A DNA stretch of 64,000 nt. Source: Rhizobiales bacterium 62-47 (GTDB lineage Bacteria > Pseudomonadota > Alphaproteobacteria > Rhizobiales > Xanthobacteraceae). The stretch spans positions 310,001-374,000 of the forward strand of contig MKVX01000005.1 of NCBI GenBank assembly GCA_001899255.1. Reading direction: 5' to 3'. This document shows, in pieces, positions 53,943-63,827 of this stretch. The notes beneath the pieces are model-generated. The model did not search any database. It worked only from the letters and a program-made list of their open reading frames with translations, and was not told the DNA's origin. The translations under genes and the position numbers were made by a program. Numbering within the stretch: the first letter of the stretch is position 1; each line of letters starts with the position of its first letter.

Positions 53943-54551
53943 TCAAAGTCCAACCAGACGCTCACGGCGGAGGAAACCAAGCAACGGCAGCAAAGGCAAG
54001 CCGAGGATGGTGAAATGATCGCCCTCGATGCGCGCGAACAGATGGATGCCCAGCCCTTCGAGCTGATAAGCGCCCACGCTGCTCAATGCCGCAGGCCCGG
54101 CCGCATCGAGATAATCGCCGATGGCCGATTCATCCAGCGGGCGCATGGTCATGCGCGCCACCGCCACGTTCTCGAACAACACCTGACCGTTGCGCGCCAC
54201 CGCAACGGCGGAATGCAACTCATGGGTCTGCCCCGCCAGAGCGCGCAAATGTTCGGCAGCGCCGGCGCGATCGGTCGGCTTACTGAAGCGGCGCGCGCCA
54301 AGCGCCAGCGTCTGATCGGCGCCGATGACGTAACGCTCGGGATGTTGCCGGGACACAAACAGCGCCTTCTCGCAGGCCAGCCGCTGCGCCACGTCGCCGG
54401 GCAACGACAGGCCCGATTCGCGTTCGATGGCCCGCTCGTCGAGCGCTGCCGGCACTGCTTCAAACGGCAATTGCGCGTTGGCAAGCAAGTCCTGCCGCGC
54501 ACGGCTCTGCGACGCCAAAATCAACGGCTGCGCGCCCCGCCATGACGTCAT
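53943..54551 (-). CDS. Maf family nucleotide pyrophosphatase
   Basis: Maf proteins hydrolyse non-canonical or methylated nucleoside triphosphates. The 202-residue protein shows [40 protein letters not shown] and [18 protein letters not shown]. The C-terminus is [31 protein letters not shown]. The usual LASxSPRR is SQSRAR here, a mild deviation. Its start overlaps the ppsR stop by four bases, so the pair is translationally coupled. Confidence 0.92.
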
Positions 54552-55387
54552 TCGGGAACTCGCTGCCGTTGCCGATCGGCATACAGCTTCATCACCGCTG
54601 CGGCGCTTTCCTCGATCGAGCGCCGCGTGACATCGAGTTGCACCCAGCCATGCTTGGCACTCAGTCGTTTGGCGAACGACACTTCATCCGCTACCGACTG
54701 GCGGTCCGTATAGATATCGTTGCCGGCATTGGCACCCATGCTCAGCAACCGATTCTGCCGGACCTGGATCAAGCGTTCCGGCGTGGCGTGCAGACTGACG
54801 ACCAGCGGCTTCTTCAAGCTTTCCAACTGGTGCGGAATGGCGATGCCCGGCACCAGCGGCACATTGGCGGTCCGAATGCCGCGATTGGCGAGGTAGATCG
54901 AAGTTGGCGTTTTCGACGTTCGCGATACGCCGACCAGAACCACATCGGCCTCTTCCAGACCTTCGACATGCTGACCGTCGTCATGCAGCATGGTGTAATT
55001 GAGCGCATCGATCCGCTTGAAGTAATCCGCGTTCAGCACGTGCTGGGCCCCCACGCGGCCGGTAGTCGACGCACCGAGATAGGCGTGAAACAACTGCATC
55101 ACCGGACCGATGATCGACAGGCTCGGAATGTTGATCTCCTTGCACTTGCCTTCGAGCCGCTCGACCAGATCGTTTTCCAGCAGCGTAAACAGCACAATGC
55201 CGGGGGCTTCCTCGATCTCGGCAAGCACCCGATCGAGCTGCTTCTGGCTGCGAACCAGCGGATAGACATGTTCGACCGGCGTGACGTTGGCATATTGCGC
55301 AGCGACCGCGCGCGCCACCGTGATCAACGTCTCGCCCGTCGAATCGGACACCAGATGCAAATGAAAATAACTGCCTGAGGTCGGCAC
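54548..55387 (-). CDS. ppsR: pyruvate, phosphate dikinase / PEP synthase regulatory protein PpsR
   Basis: The 279-residue DUF299 protein is a bifunctional kinase/pyrophosphorylase that switches PEP synthase or pyruvate phosphate dikinase by phosphorylating a threonine. Motifs: [30 protein letters not shown], and a P-loop-like [24 protein letters not shown], ending with MLAxxD-like [14 protein letters not shown]. It heads the leftward cluster ppsR-maf-coaE-dnaQ. The Caulobacter homologue of this gene borders the origin of replication, as this one appears to do. Confidence 0.94.
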
Positions 55388-55837
55388 GCTAAACCTGTGT
55401 GTTCTGTGAATCAGTGTGGAATGTAAGCAAAGAATTAACCGGCAACCCGGTGCCCTTTGGATAACCGGTCATCTTCTTCACAGGCGCAATCAAAGGATAA
55501 GATTCCGGACCGTCGCGATGATACTGGGATTAACCCGGCTTGTCTCTGGATAAGCTGGGTATGATGGAACACAAGTATCTGAAGATTCATCCGATATCGA
55601 AACCTGCGATGAGCCGAAAGAATTCGTAGCGGATGTGGGCAAGTATCCGATAACGCGGGATGACATTGTGCCCGCGCAAATCACCGTCACTTAGACTCAA
55701 ACCTAAGATTCTATAAATATTATTAGAGGGAAGCGGTGCATGCGGATATGTATGTGCCCGCTCGTCTCGGTTTGCAGGTCGCTGCAGGCATCTCGGGCTT
55801 TGCAGCGGTATTGATAGCGAACCGATGAGGCATCCAG
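55388..55837. other. putative chromosomal replication origin (oriC)
   Basis: A 450-base gap between ppsR and hemJ, which point away from each other. It contains five GANTC sites (55408, 55501, 55584, 55694, 55707), DnaA-box-like sequences TTTGGATAA (55456), TCTGGATAA (55545), TTCTTCACA (55474) and TGTGAATCA (55405), and two TTAACC/TTAACCC half-sites that could bind CtrA. An AT-rich tract lies at 55691-55730 (ctataaatattattagag). In Caulobacter the origin lies in the same place between the ppsR homologue and hemE, with GANTC, DnaA and CtrA sites. No RNA gene or open frame was recognised here. Confidence 0.6.
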
Positions 55838-56260
55838 ATGTATGAGTGGATCAAGGCCGTCCATGTGATCGCGGTGATTTCCTGGATGGCCGGCATGCTC
55901 TATCTGCCGCGGCTGTTCGTTTATCACTGCGAGGCTGAAGTCGGGTCGAAGCAGTCCGAAACGTTCAAGGTGATGGAACGACGGCTGCTCAAGGCCATCA
56001 TCAATCCGGCGATGATCGTGACCTGGGTGCTGGGACTCTACCTTGCGTGGTCCGGCGGCTGGTATCTGAGCGGCTGGTTTCACGTCAAGCTGGTGCTGGT
56101 GCTGGCGATGTCCGCCGTCCATGGCCTGTTTACTCGCTGGGTACGTGAATTCGCTCAGGACCGGAATACGCGAAGCCAGAAATTTTACAGGATAATCAAT
56201 GAGGTACCGACGGTCCTGATGATCGGAATCGTCATCATGGTGATCGTGAAGCCATTCTGA
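55838..56260 (+). CDS. hemJ: protoporphyrinogen IX oxidase HemJ
   Basis: HemJ oxidises protoporphyrinogen to protoporphyrin in heme synthesis at the inner membrane. The 140-residue product has four membrane helices and the family motifs MYEWIKAVHVIAVISWMAGM, LYLPRLFVYHCEAEVGS, MERRLLKAIINPAMI and WFHVKLVLVLAMSAVHGLF, with the heme-ligand histidine near residue 9. In many relatives hemE (and hemH) lie just upstream; they are absent here. GAGG precedes the ATG. Confidence 0.93.
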   Translation: MYEWIKAVHVIAVISWMAGMLYLPRLFVYHCEAEVGSKQSETFKVMERRLLKAIINPAMIVTWVLGLYLAWSGGWYLSGWFHVKLVLVLAMSAVHGLFTRWVREFAQDRNTRSQKFYRIINEVPTVLMIGIVIMVIVKPF

Positions 56261-57885: not shown

Positions 57886-59916
57886 CTACAACGCGAGCAT
57901 CACCAACTCTTTTAACCCAGCAACGTTCGTCACCGGCAGCGAGCAGCTCTGGTTGCGGCAGACGAATGCGGCGGCGCCTTGCACGGCTTCGGCCTTCGCA
58001 CGCGCCATATGCCCGGCCGGCAATGCCCCGGCGCGCGGCGCATACAGGACGATGCTGGTCGCGTGCGGCAGTCGTCGCGCAGCATTGAGCAACGCGTCAG
58101 CCGCCGTCCCCTCGCCGACCACCACGATCTCGGCGCCGGTCAGATACAGATCGAGCGCGTTCAGCAGCGACAGGTGGCCGAAGATGTTCTCGCCGGCGAC
58201 CGGCAGCAGCTTGCCGAACAGCGCATCGATTTGCGTGCGCCATGCGTCGTCGCCAGTCAGCGTCGCCAACCGCACCAGATTCTGCGCGATCAGTCCGACA
58301 TGGTTTGGAATGGCATCGTCGACGGTCGAATGCGGCCGCACGATCAGGCCTTCGGCATCGTCGGCGGTGAGATAGTAGCCGCCGTGTTCGGCGTCGGCGT
58401 AGTGTTTGTCGAGCAGACGTTGCCAGGCCACGGCTTGCTGCAGGAAGCGCGATTCCCCGCTGGCCTCATACAGCGCCAGCGCGGCGCGGATCATCGCGGC
58501 ATAGTCGGAGGCCAGCGCGGGAATCAACAACTGTCCGGCGCGCCAGGAATGGCCGAGCCGGCCGTCGCGGCTCATTGATGTGGCCATGAAGTCGAAGGCT
58601 TTGCGCGCTATCACCAGCCATTGCGGTTCGCTGAATGTGCTAGCGGCATGCGCCAGTGCTGCGATCGTCAGGCCGTTCCAGTCGGCCAGCACCTTGTCGT
58701 CGAGACCGGGACGAATGCGCTTGGCGCGGGCGTTCAGCAGGATGGCACGCATCGCCGCAAGCTGCTCGGCTTCGGTCGGCGTATCGTCATCGCTCAACAG
58801 GCGATTGAGAATGGTGTGGCCTTCGAAATTGCCGTCGCGGGTAACGTCATACTTGGCGGCGAACAATGTCGCGTCGTCGCTGCCGAGCAACTGTTCGATC
58901 TCGCTTTGCGACCAGACGTAGAACTTCCCCTCCTCGCCTTCGGAATCCGCATCGAGCGAGGAAGCGAATGCGCCTTCGGGCGTCGTCATCTCGCGCACCA
59001 GCCAGCCGACGGTTTCCGCGGCGCGCTGGCGATATAGCGGGTTGTTGCTGCGGGCATAGTCCAGCGCCAGTAGATCGAGCAGCTGCGCGTTGTCGTACAG
59101 CATCTTTTCGAAGTGCGGCACCAGCCACTTGTCATCCACCGAATAGCGCGCATAGCCGCCGCCGAGATGATCGTAGATGCCGCCATGACTGATGCGCGTC
59201 AGCGCGAGGTTGCTGGTGATGAAGAAACGTTCGTCACCGGTGCGCGCCCCTGCCCGCCAGAGAAATTCCAGCATCGCGCATTGCGGAAATTTCGGTGCGC
59301 CACGCAGACCGCCGTTGATCGGATCGGTGGCGCGCGCGATCGACGATGCCGCGTTGTTCAGTTCAGTGGGGCCGATGTCGGTGGGGTTGCTTGCTTGCGT
59401 GCGTTGCGCGAGGCGCTGCACCAGTGCGTCGCGGTTCTGCGTGATCTTGTGCGGCTCGGTGTGAAACAGCCGCGACACCGTGCGCAGCACATCGGTGAAA
59501 CCGGCACGGCCATATTGCGGCGTCTTGGGAAAATAAGTGCCGCCCCAGAACGGCTCGCCGTCCGGCGTGAGAAACATCGTCAGCGGCCAGCCGCCCTGCT
59601 CGCCCAGGTGATGCAACGCATTCATGTAGATCTGATCGATGTCGGGCCGCTCCTCGCGGTCCACTTTGATGCTGACGAACAGCTCGTTCATCACTGCGGC
59701 AGTCGCGTCGTCCTCGAAGCTTTCGTGCGCCATGACATGGCACCAGTGGCACGCGGCATAACCGACGGAGAGCAGGATCGGCTTGTTGCTGCGCTTGGCT
59801 TCGGCCAAAGCGTCCGGTCCCCACGGCCACCAGTCCACCGGGTTATGCTGATGCTGCAACAGATAGGGACTGGTTGCGTGCGCGAGCCGGTTGGTGTGCG
59901 ATGTCGCCTCGGTCAT
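57886..59916 (-). CDS. DUF255 thioredoxin-domain protein (YyaL/SSP411-like)
   Basis: The 676-residue product starts [20 protein letters not shown] and has an N-terminal thioredoxin-like domain with [20 protein letters not shown] (CxxC-like motif CHWC), followed by [36 protein letters not shown] long (alpha/alpha)6 glycosidase-like domain follows. Members are called spermatogenesis-associated protein 20 homologues; function unproven. It runs opposite to rho and mnmE, and its 5' end lies 87 bases from the mnmE start. The open frame to 60033 overlaps mnmE and is not used. Confidence 0.9.
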
Positions 59917-60002
59917 GTTGCGGCCTTCCGGTGAATGTGTTTTGCAACGGTGGCCGCGATGGAATTGGCCCGTCGTCATGCGTGGTACTGGATAGATAGG
60001 AT

Positions 60003-61403
60003 ATGCACCCGCGAGAGCAAACCATCTTTGCATTGTCGTCGGGCCGCCCGCCGACGGCGATCGCCATCGTGCGCGTCTCGGGTTCTCAGGCGGCTAACAT
60101 CCTTTCATCGCTTGTCGGCAAACTACCGCAGCCGCGCGTTGCGACGCGCGCGATGCTGCGGGATCGCGGCGGTGCGATGATAGATGACGCTGTGGCGCTT
60201 TGGTTTCCGGGCCCGGCCAGCGCCACCGGCGAAGATGTCGCGGAGTTTCATATTCATGGCGGCCGCGCCGTGTTGGCGGCATTGCTCGCGGCGCTCGGCT
60301 CGTTCGACGGGACGCGCGCTGCGGAGCCCGGCGAGTTCACGCGACGCGCCTTCGAGAACGGCAAGCTGGATCTCACCGAAGCCGAAGGCCTCGACGATCT
60401 GATCCACGCCGATACCGACCGGCAGCGGCGGCAGGCGTTGCGGCAGTTGCAGGGTCTGCTCGGCGACAGGGCGCGCGCATGGCGGCAGCAGATCATCGAG
60501 GCGGCGGCGCTGATCGAGGCCGGGATCGACTTCGCCGACGAGGGCGACGTGCCGGAAGAACTGCTGGCGCCGGCGTTGCGCAAGATCGCCGCACTCAAGG
60601 ACGAGATCGAAGAAAGCCTTGCGGCATCGGCGCGCAGCGAACGTTTGCGCGAGGGTCTGGTGGTGGCGATTGCCGGTGCGCCGAATGTCGGCAAGTCGAC
60701 GCTGCTCAATGCGCTGGCGCGGCGCGAGGTGGCAATCGTGTCGCCGCATGCCGGCACCACGCGCGACATCATCGAGGTACAACTCGATCTCGACGGTTAC
60801 CCGGTGACGGTGATCGACACTGCGGGCATTCGCGACACCGACGATCCAGTGGAGCAGGAGGGCGTGCGGCGGGCGCGGGCGCGGGCGGCGGAGGCCGATC
60901 TGGTGCTGTGGCTGGTCGATGACGCGCCATCGGCGTTGGTGGGGATCGAGGGCGAGGCACCGGTCTGGCTGGTGCGCAACAAGATCGATCTGGCGAGCGG
61001 GAAGGGCGGTTTCACGGCTTGCGATTTCGTTGCGGCAAACCCGTGGCCGGATTGCGGCAGCGCGGACGACCGTGCGCCGTGGCGCGGGGCGGGGGAGCGG
61101 CAATTCGCCATCTCGGCGGAAAAGGGCGAGGGCGTGCCTGATCTGGTCGCCGGACTGGCCGATTTTGCGCAGCGATATTTTGGCGGTGGCGAAAGCGCGC
61201 TGATCGGACGGCAGCGGCACCAGCAATTGCTGCGCAACACGACAGATGCGCTGCAACGCAGCATAGGCTCAGCCGGACTCGGCGAGGAGGTTGTGGCAGA
61301 GGAACTGCGGATTGCCGTTCAATCCTTGGGTCGGCTGCTGGGTCAGGTGGATGTCGAGGATTTGTTAGACGTCATATTTCGGGAGTTTTGTGTAGGTAAG
61401 TAA
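60003..61403 (+). CDS. mnmE: tRNA modification GTPase MnmE
   Basis: MnmE with MnmG installs the (carboxymethyl)aminomethyl group at U34 of several tRNAs. The 466-residue product has the N-terminal tetrahydrofolate-binding fold, a helical domain ([20 protein letters not shown]), and an inserted GTPase domain with the P-loop [25 protein letters not shown] and [13 protein letters not shown]. The invariant C-terminal FCVGK (CxGK) follows. mnmG lies 531 bases downstream, unusually far, with parS sites in between. Confidence 0.97.
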
Positions 61404-61504
61404 TATTACATTGTTCATTATTGATATTTTATTATATATATCAATATGATAGTCATATGGAACCGGATTAGGGGCTGGCCCGACGTTTCCCCACCTGCCG
61501 GGGC

Positions 61505-61520
61505 TGTTTCACGTGAAACA
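61505..61520. promoter_or_regulatory. parS site 1 (ParB-binding centromere-like site)
   Basis: TGTTTCACGTGAAACA is a perfect match to the 16-bp palindromic parS consensus to which ParB binds. It lies between mnmE and mnmG. Confidence 0.95.
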
Positions 61521-61827
61521 ACTTTGATCGCTCGCCCGTGGACCGACCTTACCCATCCAGATCCGAGCCCACGGTCGATCGGCCACTTCGCGTTTTCACA
61601 TAGGGAGGAGTACGGCATCAGTCTCGCGCGTCCTCCGGTGCAGACGCGGTGGCGAGCAATTCAGGAACTGGGTAAGGCACGCAGGTTGCCTTCGGTCCGA
61701 AGGAGCCGGACGGGTTTGGCCTTACTGGCGGAATTTCAGCCCATCCCGGTCGAGCGAGTTGATCCGGATATTGGGTCAACCCACCCTGCGCCGGACCCGG
61801 CGGTCGGAACCTTGCCAAAGCCGCCCG

Positions 61828-61843
61828 TGTTTCACGTGAAACA
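61828..61843. promoter_or_regulatory. parS site 2
   Basis: TGTTTCACGTGAAACA, the second perfect parS, 323 bases after the first and about 90 bases before the mnmG start. Confidence 0.95.
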
Positions 61844-61934
61844 GCCACCCCGAAAATCCCGAGTTTTCTGTTTTCAGTCCGCGTGATCCTGCGCTAGAAG
61901 TCGCGCCAGCGGCGCAAATTCGATTGGTGCAGCC

Positions 61935-63809
61935 TTGGCCTTATCATTCGACGTCATTGTCATCGGGGGCGGTCACGCCGGCTGCGAAGCCGCGGCGGCA
62001 TCGGCGCGTATGGGCGCGCGCACCGCCCTGGTGACGCACCAATTCGCCACCGTCGGCGCGATGTCCTGCAATCCGGCGATCGGTGGGCTCGGCAAGGGCC
62101 ATCTGGTGCGCGAGGTCGATGCGCTGGACGGCCTGATGGGCCGGGTGATCGACCAGGCCGGTATCCAGTTTCGTATGCTCAACCGGCGCAAGGGTCCGGC
62201 GGTGCGCGGGCCGCGCGCCCAGGCCGACCGCAAGCTTTATGCCGCCGCGATGCAGGCGGCGATTCGCGACACCGCCAATCTGACGGTCATCGAGGGCGAG
62301 GCGGACGAATTGCTTCGCTCGGGCGACCGGGTGACCGGGATCAGGCTTGCCGACGGTGCGGAGATCGGAGCAGGGGCGGTGGTGGTCACGACCGGCACCT
62401 TTTTGCGCGGGTTGATTCACCTCGGCGAAAAAAGCTGGCCCGCCGGGCGAGTCGGCGAAGCGCCGGCGCTGGGCCTCTCGAAGTCGTTCGAAGCGGCCGG
62501 ATTCACGCTGGGCCGGCTCAAGACCGGCACGCCGGCACGGCTCGACGGCACCACCATCGACTGGGGTGCAGTGGAAATGCAGCCCGGCGACGATCCGCCG
62601 GAGCCGTTTTCGGTCCTGACCGACCGCATCACCACGCCGCAGATCCAGTGCGGCATCACTCGCACCACGGCGGCGACCCATGAGGTGATCCGCGCCAACG
62701 TGCACCGCTCGCCGATGTATTCCGGCCAGATCACCAGCACCGGGCCGCGCTATTGCCCATCGATCGAGGACAAGATCGTCCGATTCGGTGATCGCGACGG
62801 GCATCAGATCTTCCTCGAGCCGGAAGGGCTCGACGACAACACGGTCTATCCCAACGGCATCTCGACCTCGCTGCCGGAAGAGGTGCAGCAGGCCATCGTC
62901 GCCTCGATTCCGGGGCTGGAGCGCACCCGGATCATCCGGCCGGGCTATGCCATCGAATACGACCATGTCGATCCGCGCGAGCTGGCGCCGACCTTGCAGA
63001 CCAAACGGTTGCCGGGCCTGTTCCTGGCCGGGCAGATCAACGGCACCACCGGCTATGAAGAAGCCGCGGCGCAGGGGCTGGTGGCCGGGCTGAATGCGGC
63101 GCTGCTGGCCGGGGGCGGGGAGCCGATGGTGTTCGATCGCGCCGACGGCTATCTCGGCGTCATGATCGACGATCTGGTGACGCGCGGCGTCACCGAGCCG
63201 TATCGGATGTTCACCTCGCGGGCGGAATACCGGCTGACCTTGCGCGCCGACAATGCCGATCAGCGGTTGACCGACAAGGGTCTGGCGCTGGGCTGCGTCG
63301 GGACGGAGCGGGCGGCGCGCCATGCCGCCAAGATGGCGGCGCTCGAGGCAGCGAAGACGCTGACGCAATCGCTGTCGGTGACGCCGAACGCAGCGGCGAA
63401 ACATGGCTTGGCCCTCAACCGGGACGGCCATCGCCGCTCGGCCTATGACCTACTGGCCTATCCGGAGATCGGCTGGGCCGATGTCCGCGCGATCTGGCCG
63501 GAGCTGTCGGCCATTGACCCAGCCATCGCCACCCATGTCGAGATCGATGCCAAATATGCCGTCTATCTGAAGCGGCAGGTCGCGGACGTCGAGGCGTTCC
63601 GCCGCGACGAAGGGCTGGTTTTGACCGGAATCGATTATCGGGCGGTGCCGGGACTTTCGAACGAGGCGCGCAACCGGCTGGAGAAAGCGCAGCCTCATAC
63701 GGTGGGGCAGGCGGGGCGGCTGGACGGTCTGACGCCGGCCGCGCTGGGGATTCTGGCCGCCTATCTGCGCCGCGAGGCGCGGCGCAAGGCGTCAGCGGGC
63801 GCGGCCTGA
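61935..63809 (+). CDS. mnmG: tRNA uridine-5-carboxymethylaminomethyl modification protein MnmG (TTG start)
   Basis: MnmG is the FAD- and NADH-dependent partner of MnmE. The 624-residue product starts at TTG 61935 as [20 protein letters not shown] (FAD Rossmann motif), then [83 protein letters not shown] and [13 protein letters not shown]. The C-terminal helical domain follows. Length is normal. Just after it lies a parS site. rsmG, parA and parB usually follow and are beyond the window end. Confidence 0.96.
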
Positions 63810-63811
63810 GC

Positions 63812-63827
63812 TGTTTCACGTGAAACA
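63812..63827. promoter_or_regulatory. parS site 3
   Basis: TGTTTCACGTGAAACA, a third perfect parS, two bases after the mnmG stop codon and about 2 kb from site 2. Confidence 0.95.

Follow-up and report, generated by a model that had tools for sequence, protein, structure and literature searches.

The ppsR/hemJ intergenic gap of Rhizobiales bacterium 62-47 as a candidate chromosomal replication origin in which hemJ takes the place of hemE

An origin gap between hemE and ppsR (the COG1806 gene) has been described for Caulobacter and Rickettsia (PMC1914354). For Rickettsia and Wolbachia, the origins were predicted in that work from neighbouring genes and from DnaA, CtrA and IHF sites, and the present analysis proceeds likewise. 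One neighbour of the Wolbachia origin has changed, too, but there hemE stays and COG1806 has moved elsewhere (PMC1914354), whereas at the locus described here ppsR stays and hemE has moved. The origins of Bradyrhizobium and Rhodopseudomonas given in PMC7020250 and PMC4036050 were, as their origin passages describe it, predicted by GC skew, Ori-Finder or signature sequences, and not located by experiment. Origin coordinates serve gene-dosage, strand-bias and growth-rate work as well as the building of plasmids. The family concerned includes soybean symbionts and Rhodopseudomonas.

The window analysed here is the whole stretch of 64,000 bases (G000:C5:310001-374000) from a 4.9-Mb genome assembled in 23 contigs. 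An earlier note on this DNA had proposed a chromosomal origin in the gap between ppsR and hemJ. This proposal was supported by the position of the gap, its density of DnaA boxes, its AT-rich tract and conserved GANTC sites, the nearby turn in strand bias, and synteny across the order. We estimate the probability that chromosome replication starts in the gap 55388-55837 at about 0.9.

As in the Caulobacter crescentus origin (Cori), ppsR is a direct neighbour of the gap, which is 450 bases long here and 404 bases in Caulobacter (PMC1914354). Both gaps contain an AT-rich tract and DnaA boxes, including a G-box-like one in the present locus, and ccrM is present in both genomes. The parS sites are ~8 kb from the origin in Caulobacter and 5.7 kb here (PMC6399470). 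In contrast to Cori, which has hemE on the other side, the gap is followed by hemJ. The gene names given earlier around the gap were borne out by NCBIfam profiles: PpsR, CoaE, DnaQ, HemJ, Rho, MnmE and MnmG passed the cut-off, whereas Maf was the best match at its gene yet remained below the cut-offs. A flip of gene polarity at the gap had also been noted. The leftward and rightward runs are indeed present, but a DUF255 gene on the minus strand (57886-60033), located between rho and mnmE, interrupts the rightward run, and the left run is opposed by secB, on the plus strand directly left of dnaQ. The product of the interrupting gene is a 715-aa protein of the DUF255/Thioredox_DsbH type, encoded opposite to its neighbours. 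The coordinates of the features are given in Table 1.

Table 1. Features of the candidate origin gap and of the adjoining locus, in window coordinates. Row counts refer to the alignment of 79 gaps.
Feature	Position	Strand	Evidence or conservation
ppsR (known as COG1806/DUF299 in origin papers), conserved neighbour of the origin	54548..55387	-	NF003742, 336.5 bits
Candidate oriC, ppsR/hemJ intergenic gap	55388..55837	.	Sequence; top DnaA-box and combined count of 400 kb; GC3 turn
Three DnaA-box-like 9-mers in tandem	55396..55423	-	Plus-strand letters TGTGTGTTC (55396), TGTGAATCA (55405), TGTGGAATG (55415)
GANTC (GAATC)	55408..55412	.	45/78 relatives
DnaA box TTATCCAAA, 1 mismatch	55456..55464	-	NNGGGATAA forms in 38/79 rows
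DnaA-box-like TTCTTCACA, 2 mismatches to E. coli consensus	55474..55482	+	Identical in 60/79 rows
DnaA box TTATCCAGA, 1 mismatch	55545..55553	-	TTATGAAGA in 20/79, TTATCAAGA in 18/79 rows
DnaA-box-like TTGCCCACA, 2 mismatches	55634..55642	-	TTGTTCACA in 53/79 rows
Conserved AT-rich block, probably the DNA unwinding element	55686..55733	.	Two GANTC inside
GANTC (GACTC)	55694..55698	.	78/78 relatives
GANTC (GATTC)	55707..55711	.	75/78 relatives, N variable: 50 GATTC, 25 GAATC
DnaA-box-like ATATCCGCA, 2 mismatches	55741..55749	-	Identical in 29/79 rows
hemJ, in the place of hemE	55838..56260	+	TIGR00701
parS palindrome TGTTTCACGTGAAACA, mnmE/mnmG gap, place of the published rival, outside oriC	61505..61520	.	
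parS palindrome, mnmE/mnmG gap	61828..61843	.	
parS palindrome, just after mnmG	63812..63827	.	rsmG, parA, parB follow beyond the window

The sites that had been listed for the gap were all present: five GANTC (55408, 55501, 55584, 55694 and 55707), two one-mismatch matches to the DnaA box TTATCCACA (55456 and 55545, both on the minus strand), two TTAACC (55435 and 55530) and an AT-rich tract. The gap was compared with 7992 segments of 450 bases elsewhere in 400 kb of the contig, the combined count being the sum of two-mismatch TTATCCACA boxes, GANTC and TTAACC. Six DnaA-box-like sites with up to two mismatches were found in the gap, compared to a maximum of 4 elsewhere, and two with one mismatch, compared to a maximum of 1; none of the 7992 segments equalled either number. 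The combined count was 13 in the gap and at most 8 elsewhere. Five GANTC were reached by 49 of these segments and two TTAACC by 30. The AT content of the gap was 51%, compared to an average of 36% in the 400 kb, and 16 of the 7992 segments matched it. The most AT-rich 40-mer of the gap (55686-55725) contained 30/40 = 75% AT, a level found in 95 of 399,961 40-mers, of which 91 were outside the gap. In 300 dinucleotide shuffles of the gap, two one-mismatch boxes were reached twice, six two-mismatch boxes never, and two TTAACC twice. The number of GANTC alone was unremarkable (5 vs a shuffle mean of 2.12), as 22 of the 300 shuffles reached five. Judged by these shuffles, the boxes and TTAACC of the gap exceed chance, whereas its GANTC taken singly do not. 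One-mismatch matches to the IHF consensus WATCAANNNNTTR occurred at 55425 and 55488, given here as a raw count.

These sites could also belong to a mere divergent promoter region, since ppsR and hemJ both start from the gap. The DnaA and GANTC sites would then be regulatory or fortuitous, and the origin would be elsewhere nearby. GANTC sites are frequent in cell-cycle promoters, which suits this reading, as do several of the GC3 fits described below, which place the strand-bias turn slightly to the right of the gap. However, the box density is the highest of the 400 kb, and in other families the gap remains box-rich and AT-rich with hemE at the place of hemJ. We therefore consider a promoter region without origin function very improbable.

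Conservation of the candidate origin was assessed in 80 ppsR loci, the best of 320 that were found, with identity of up to 90% and with record names comprising Xanthobacteraceae, Rhodopseudomonas, Bradyrhizobium, Nitrobacter, Tardiphaga and some broader ones. The order ppsR/gap/hemJ was found in 78 of these best 80 loci, with gap lengths of 414-606 bases. The other two (L077 and L079), with no hemJ on the piece, were dropped; the counts therefore refer to 78 gaps and the alignment to 79 rows including the window. The 78 gaps contained on average 5.01 two-mismatch boxes (0.96 when shuffled) and 4.40 GANTC (2.40 when shuffled), and few one-mismatch boxes (0.26 vs 0.08). In the 78 relatives, the boxes at 55456 and 55545 were not kept in their exact form. 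Despite the variability of the best boxes, box-like words such as TTCTTCACA and TTGTTCACA were common across the rows (Table 1). In the tandem, the second 9-mer, TGTGAATCA, matches the G-box of Caulobacter, TGATCCACA, with one mismatch. Among the ten commonest forms, this second 9-mer starts with TGTGNA in 68/79 rows and the third with TGTGGA in 66/79, whereas the first (55396) was kept less well.

The most conserved of five segments of the 79-row alignment was 55685-55735, with 22 of its 51 columns at a conservation of at least 95%. This segment covers the AT-rich block with its two near-fixed GANTC sites. That the site at 55707 was kept in nearly all relatives with a changing N suggests that the methylation site is conserved, and not its letters. 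Two of the five GANTC of the window were kept in none of the 78 relatives. The parS core was absent from all 78 relative gaps and was found elsewhere on the locus in 62 of the 80 loci. With up to three mismatches allowed, a single copy of the 24-base core of the AT-rich block was found in the genome. The use of this block as a family-wide marker was rejected because, at up to three mismatches, the block was found in only 21 of 149 family genomes and 7 of 47 genera; it therefore marks a subclade only.

Across the order, ppsR was found in 54 of 61 genomes (in a few of them weakly), and the best 30 loci were kept, 28 of which were from other families. Among these 28 loci, hemE was located across the gap from ppsR in 26, and in the remaining two the contig ended 0.4-0.5 kb from ppsR. 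The 26 hemE/ppsR gaps had a mean length of 440 bases and a GC content of 51%, compared to 61% for their loci. They contained on average 5.69 two-mismatch boxes and 3.81 GANTC, vs 1.07 and 1.55, respectively, in mononucleotide shuffles, and the parS core was absent from all 26. Judging from the position of hemE in these loci, the ppsR/hemJ gap corresponds in position to the hemE/ppsR origin gap, from which hemE has moved away. The single hemE found in the genome is on contig C2 (L103, G000:C2:300635-301651), away from the gap. The photosynthesis cluster is described as the location of hemE in Bradyrhizobium sp. S23321 and in R. palustris (PMC4036050). The ppsR/hemJ gap would thus be an origin of the known hemE/ppsR kind, with hemJ as the changed neighbour.

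A different place for the origin has been published for the Bradyrhizobiaceae, in the same neighbourhood and ~6 kb from the gap in the present genome. In this Ori-Finder proposal, TGTTTCACG is the DnaA box specific to the family, and the predicted origins of ten genomes adjoin gidA and the skew switch, and all contain TGTTTCACGTGAAACA (PMC2275245). The rule was also applied to Oligotropha (PMC3091675), and TGTTTCACG is among three words used for Rhodobacteraceae (PMC6699656). Accordingly, the origin would here be the mnmE/mnmG (gidA) gap, 61404-61934. The palindrome is present in this gap, its AT content is 44% (average 36%), and parS-linked boxes are among the sites on which DnaA acts in Caulobacter (PMC6399470). 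However, the mnmE/mnmG gap contained no boxes at up to two mismatches, no GANTC and no TTAACC, and its palindrome adjoins parAB. Letter for letter, the 16 bases of TGTTTCACGTGAAACA are the parS consensus of Hyphomonas neptunium, and they fit the parS forms of Bacillus and Caulobacter (PMC7022226). A gel-shift assay of Hyphomonas ParB on the same sequence is described in the methods of another study (PMC6650430). The GC3 fits described below were also worse for the mnmE/mnmG gap. We give the placement of the origin at gidA hardly any credence and regard its palindromes as parS.

All four copies of the palindrome in the genome (up to one mismatch) are grouped around mnmG and rsmG, and a parA-like gene and parB come next; the fourth copy is 130 bases past the end of the window. 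The parA-like protein matched below curated cut-offs, and the ParB matched solved ParB chains. The cluster, extending from 61505-63827 to the fourth copy, is likely the chromosomal centromere, near both parAB and the candidate origin. In BTAi1, JSC-3b and GAS478, there were 6, 6 and 5 copies (up to two mismatches), respectively, in one cluster each near ppsR, vs 0, 0 and 1 copies of the backward palindrome used as a control. A later review of alphaproteobacterial gene order describes parAB as a good origin anchor, which fits the palindrome cluster near the gap (PMC8116508).

The consensus and the genome matches suggest that TGTTTCACG is half of parS. On this reading, the published family-wide rule seems to take half of a parS site for a DnaA box and to misplace the origin, by about 3.5-6 kb in the four genomes measured. 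Such an error would be small in distance but wrong in kind, as a segregation site would be named as the replication start. No printed correction of the rule was recognised among the titles and abstract openings of papers that were mostly non-subscription. The main text of Ori-Finder 2022 contains neither TGTTTCACG nor Bradyrhizobi, and the rule may thus have fallen out of use.

As a check of the origin, the earlier note had named beforehand a minimum of the skew no more than a few kb away. The raw cumulative GC skew of the whole 461,616-base contig reached its minimum at 58,296 (-5779, compared to -5740 at 55,500), within 3 kb. This minimum is 2.5 kb to the right of the gap, between the gap and parS, and is probably shifted by the DUF255 gene (57886-60033). 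Because this minus-strand gene separates the two candidates, a GC3 fit was chosen, which finds the point where the coding-strand GC3 skew switches from the left-arm to the right-arm pattern. The GC3 skew averaged about -0.02 for leading genes and about -0.14 for lagging genes. The first fit was based on a length-greedy gene caller, which produced wrong frames (e.g., hslU, coaE and maf). This fit placed the turn best in the ppsR/hemJ gap, with no other point within 2 log units and the parS gap 5.40 worse. For this contig, the analysis was repeated in 12 fits with a caller based on codon scores; the values for BTAi1 and JSC-3b are from the first caller. The best point shifted with the gene set between 55,507 (4 fits), 58,024 (1 fit) and 59,830 (7 fits), the last being slightly preferred over the ppsR/hemJ gap in 7 of the 12. 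Over all 13 fits, the ppsR/hemJ gap was 0.00-0.88 lnL below the best point, and the mnmE/mnmG gap 2.57-5.47 lnL. The GC3 turn, corrected for gene orientation, is thus at 55.5-59.8 kb.

In the first 400 kb of BTAi1, the gap is at 165,170-165,585, the raw minimum at 167,968, and parS starts at 169,308. The 20-kb blocks of BTAi1 had a positive skew between 0.40 and 4.2 Mb and a negative skew between 4.6 and 8.0 Mb, apart from which one block at 8.24 Mb was weakly positive; 11 negative or positive signs of the sampled blocks were as expected. GC3 did not separate the two candidates in this genome (gap -0.10, parS only -0.70 lnL). In Rhodopseudomonas palustris JSC-3b, the blocks were negative at 1.26-2.9 Mb and positive from 3.5 Mb round to 1.05 Mb, which places the turn somewhere in 2.9-3.5 Mb, a range that holds the gap (3.195 Mb). 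The raw minimum of 400 kb, a stretch that contains 1684 N, was at 3,355,717, which is 160 kb away from the gap. The GC3 fit was best at 3,110,707, 85 kb on the other side of the gap (gap -0.41, parS only -1.39 lnL). Raw skew minima were rejected as a means of deciding, as they fell between the candidates here and in BTAi1 and 160 kb off in JSC-3b. Genomes with the gap and parS far apart were sought for separating the two by skew, but the palindromes were within ~25 kb of ppsR in all 12 genomes examined, which had been chosen among the 61 of the order for their small number of contigs. Since GC3 favours the gap over parS here and is undecided in BTAi1 and JSC-3b, the strand-bias support for the origin is moderate, whereas the support from sites and synteny is strong. 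A second dip of the cumulative skew, 110-160 kb from the gap, was observed in JSC-3b (G002:C1, ~3.24-3.36 Mb) and BTAi1 (G001:C1, ~0.24-0.28 Mb).

Apart from these results, the comparison with Caulobacter had included CtrA and TTAACC. This part did not stand, as TTAACC was poorly kept (mean of 0.38 per gap in the 78 relatives) and no TTAA-N7-TTAA site, the CtrA consensus as tabulated in PMC4285127, was found in the gap at up to one mismatch. Such sites are regarded as a feature of Cori and not as universal. Direct repression by CtrA at the gap is therefore not supported. A search for CtrA among response regulators gave 52 matches, from which CtrA was not singled out.

From the arrangement of the sites we infer how the origin may work. 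DnaA would bind the array of boxes, which are for the most part weak and concentrated in the left two thirds of the gap, and would open the AT-rich block 55686-55733, from where two forks would leave. The dnaA gene is at C5:187.5k, 177 kb from the gap, and its product contains all three Pfam domains. The new origins would be parted by ParB acting at the parS cluster, which is located 5.7-8.3 kb rightward of the gap. A further-reaching proposal, which we hold to be unlikely, combines three elements: CtrA has no direct part at this origin; CcrM methylation of the two near-fixed GANTC gates opening, as a counterpart of Dam/SeqA; and the TGTTTCACG-based coordinates of the Bradyrhizobiaceae mark parS and need correcting. 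The conserved GANTC pair offers a concrete test case for methylation control at an origin. CcrM probably methylates both GANTC of the AT-rich block and would thus link opening to the cell cycle. Its orthologue in this genome is a 385-aa protein (L214:1357-2514, G000:C11) that matched CcrMI (6pbd) with 526.5 bits.
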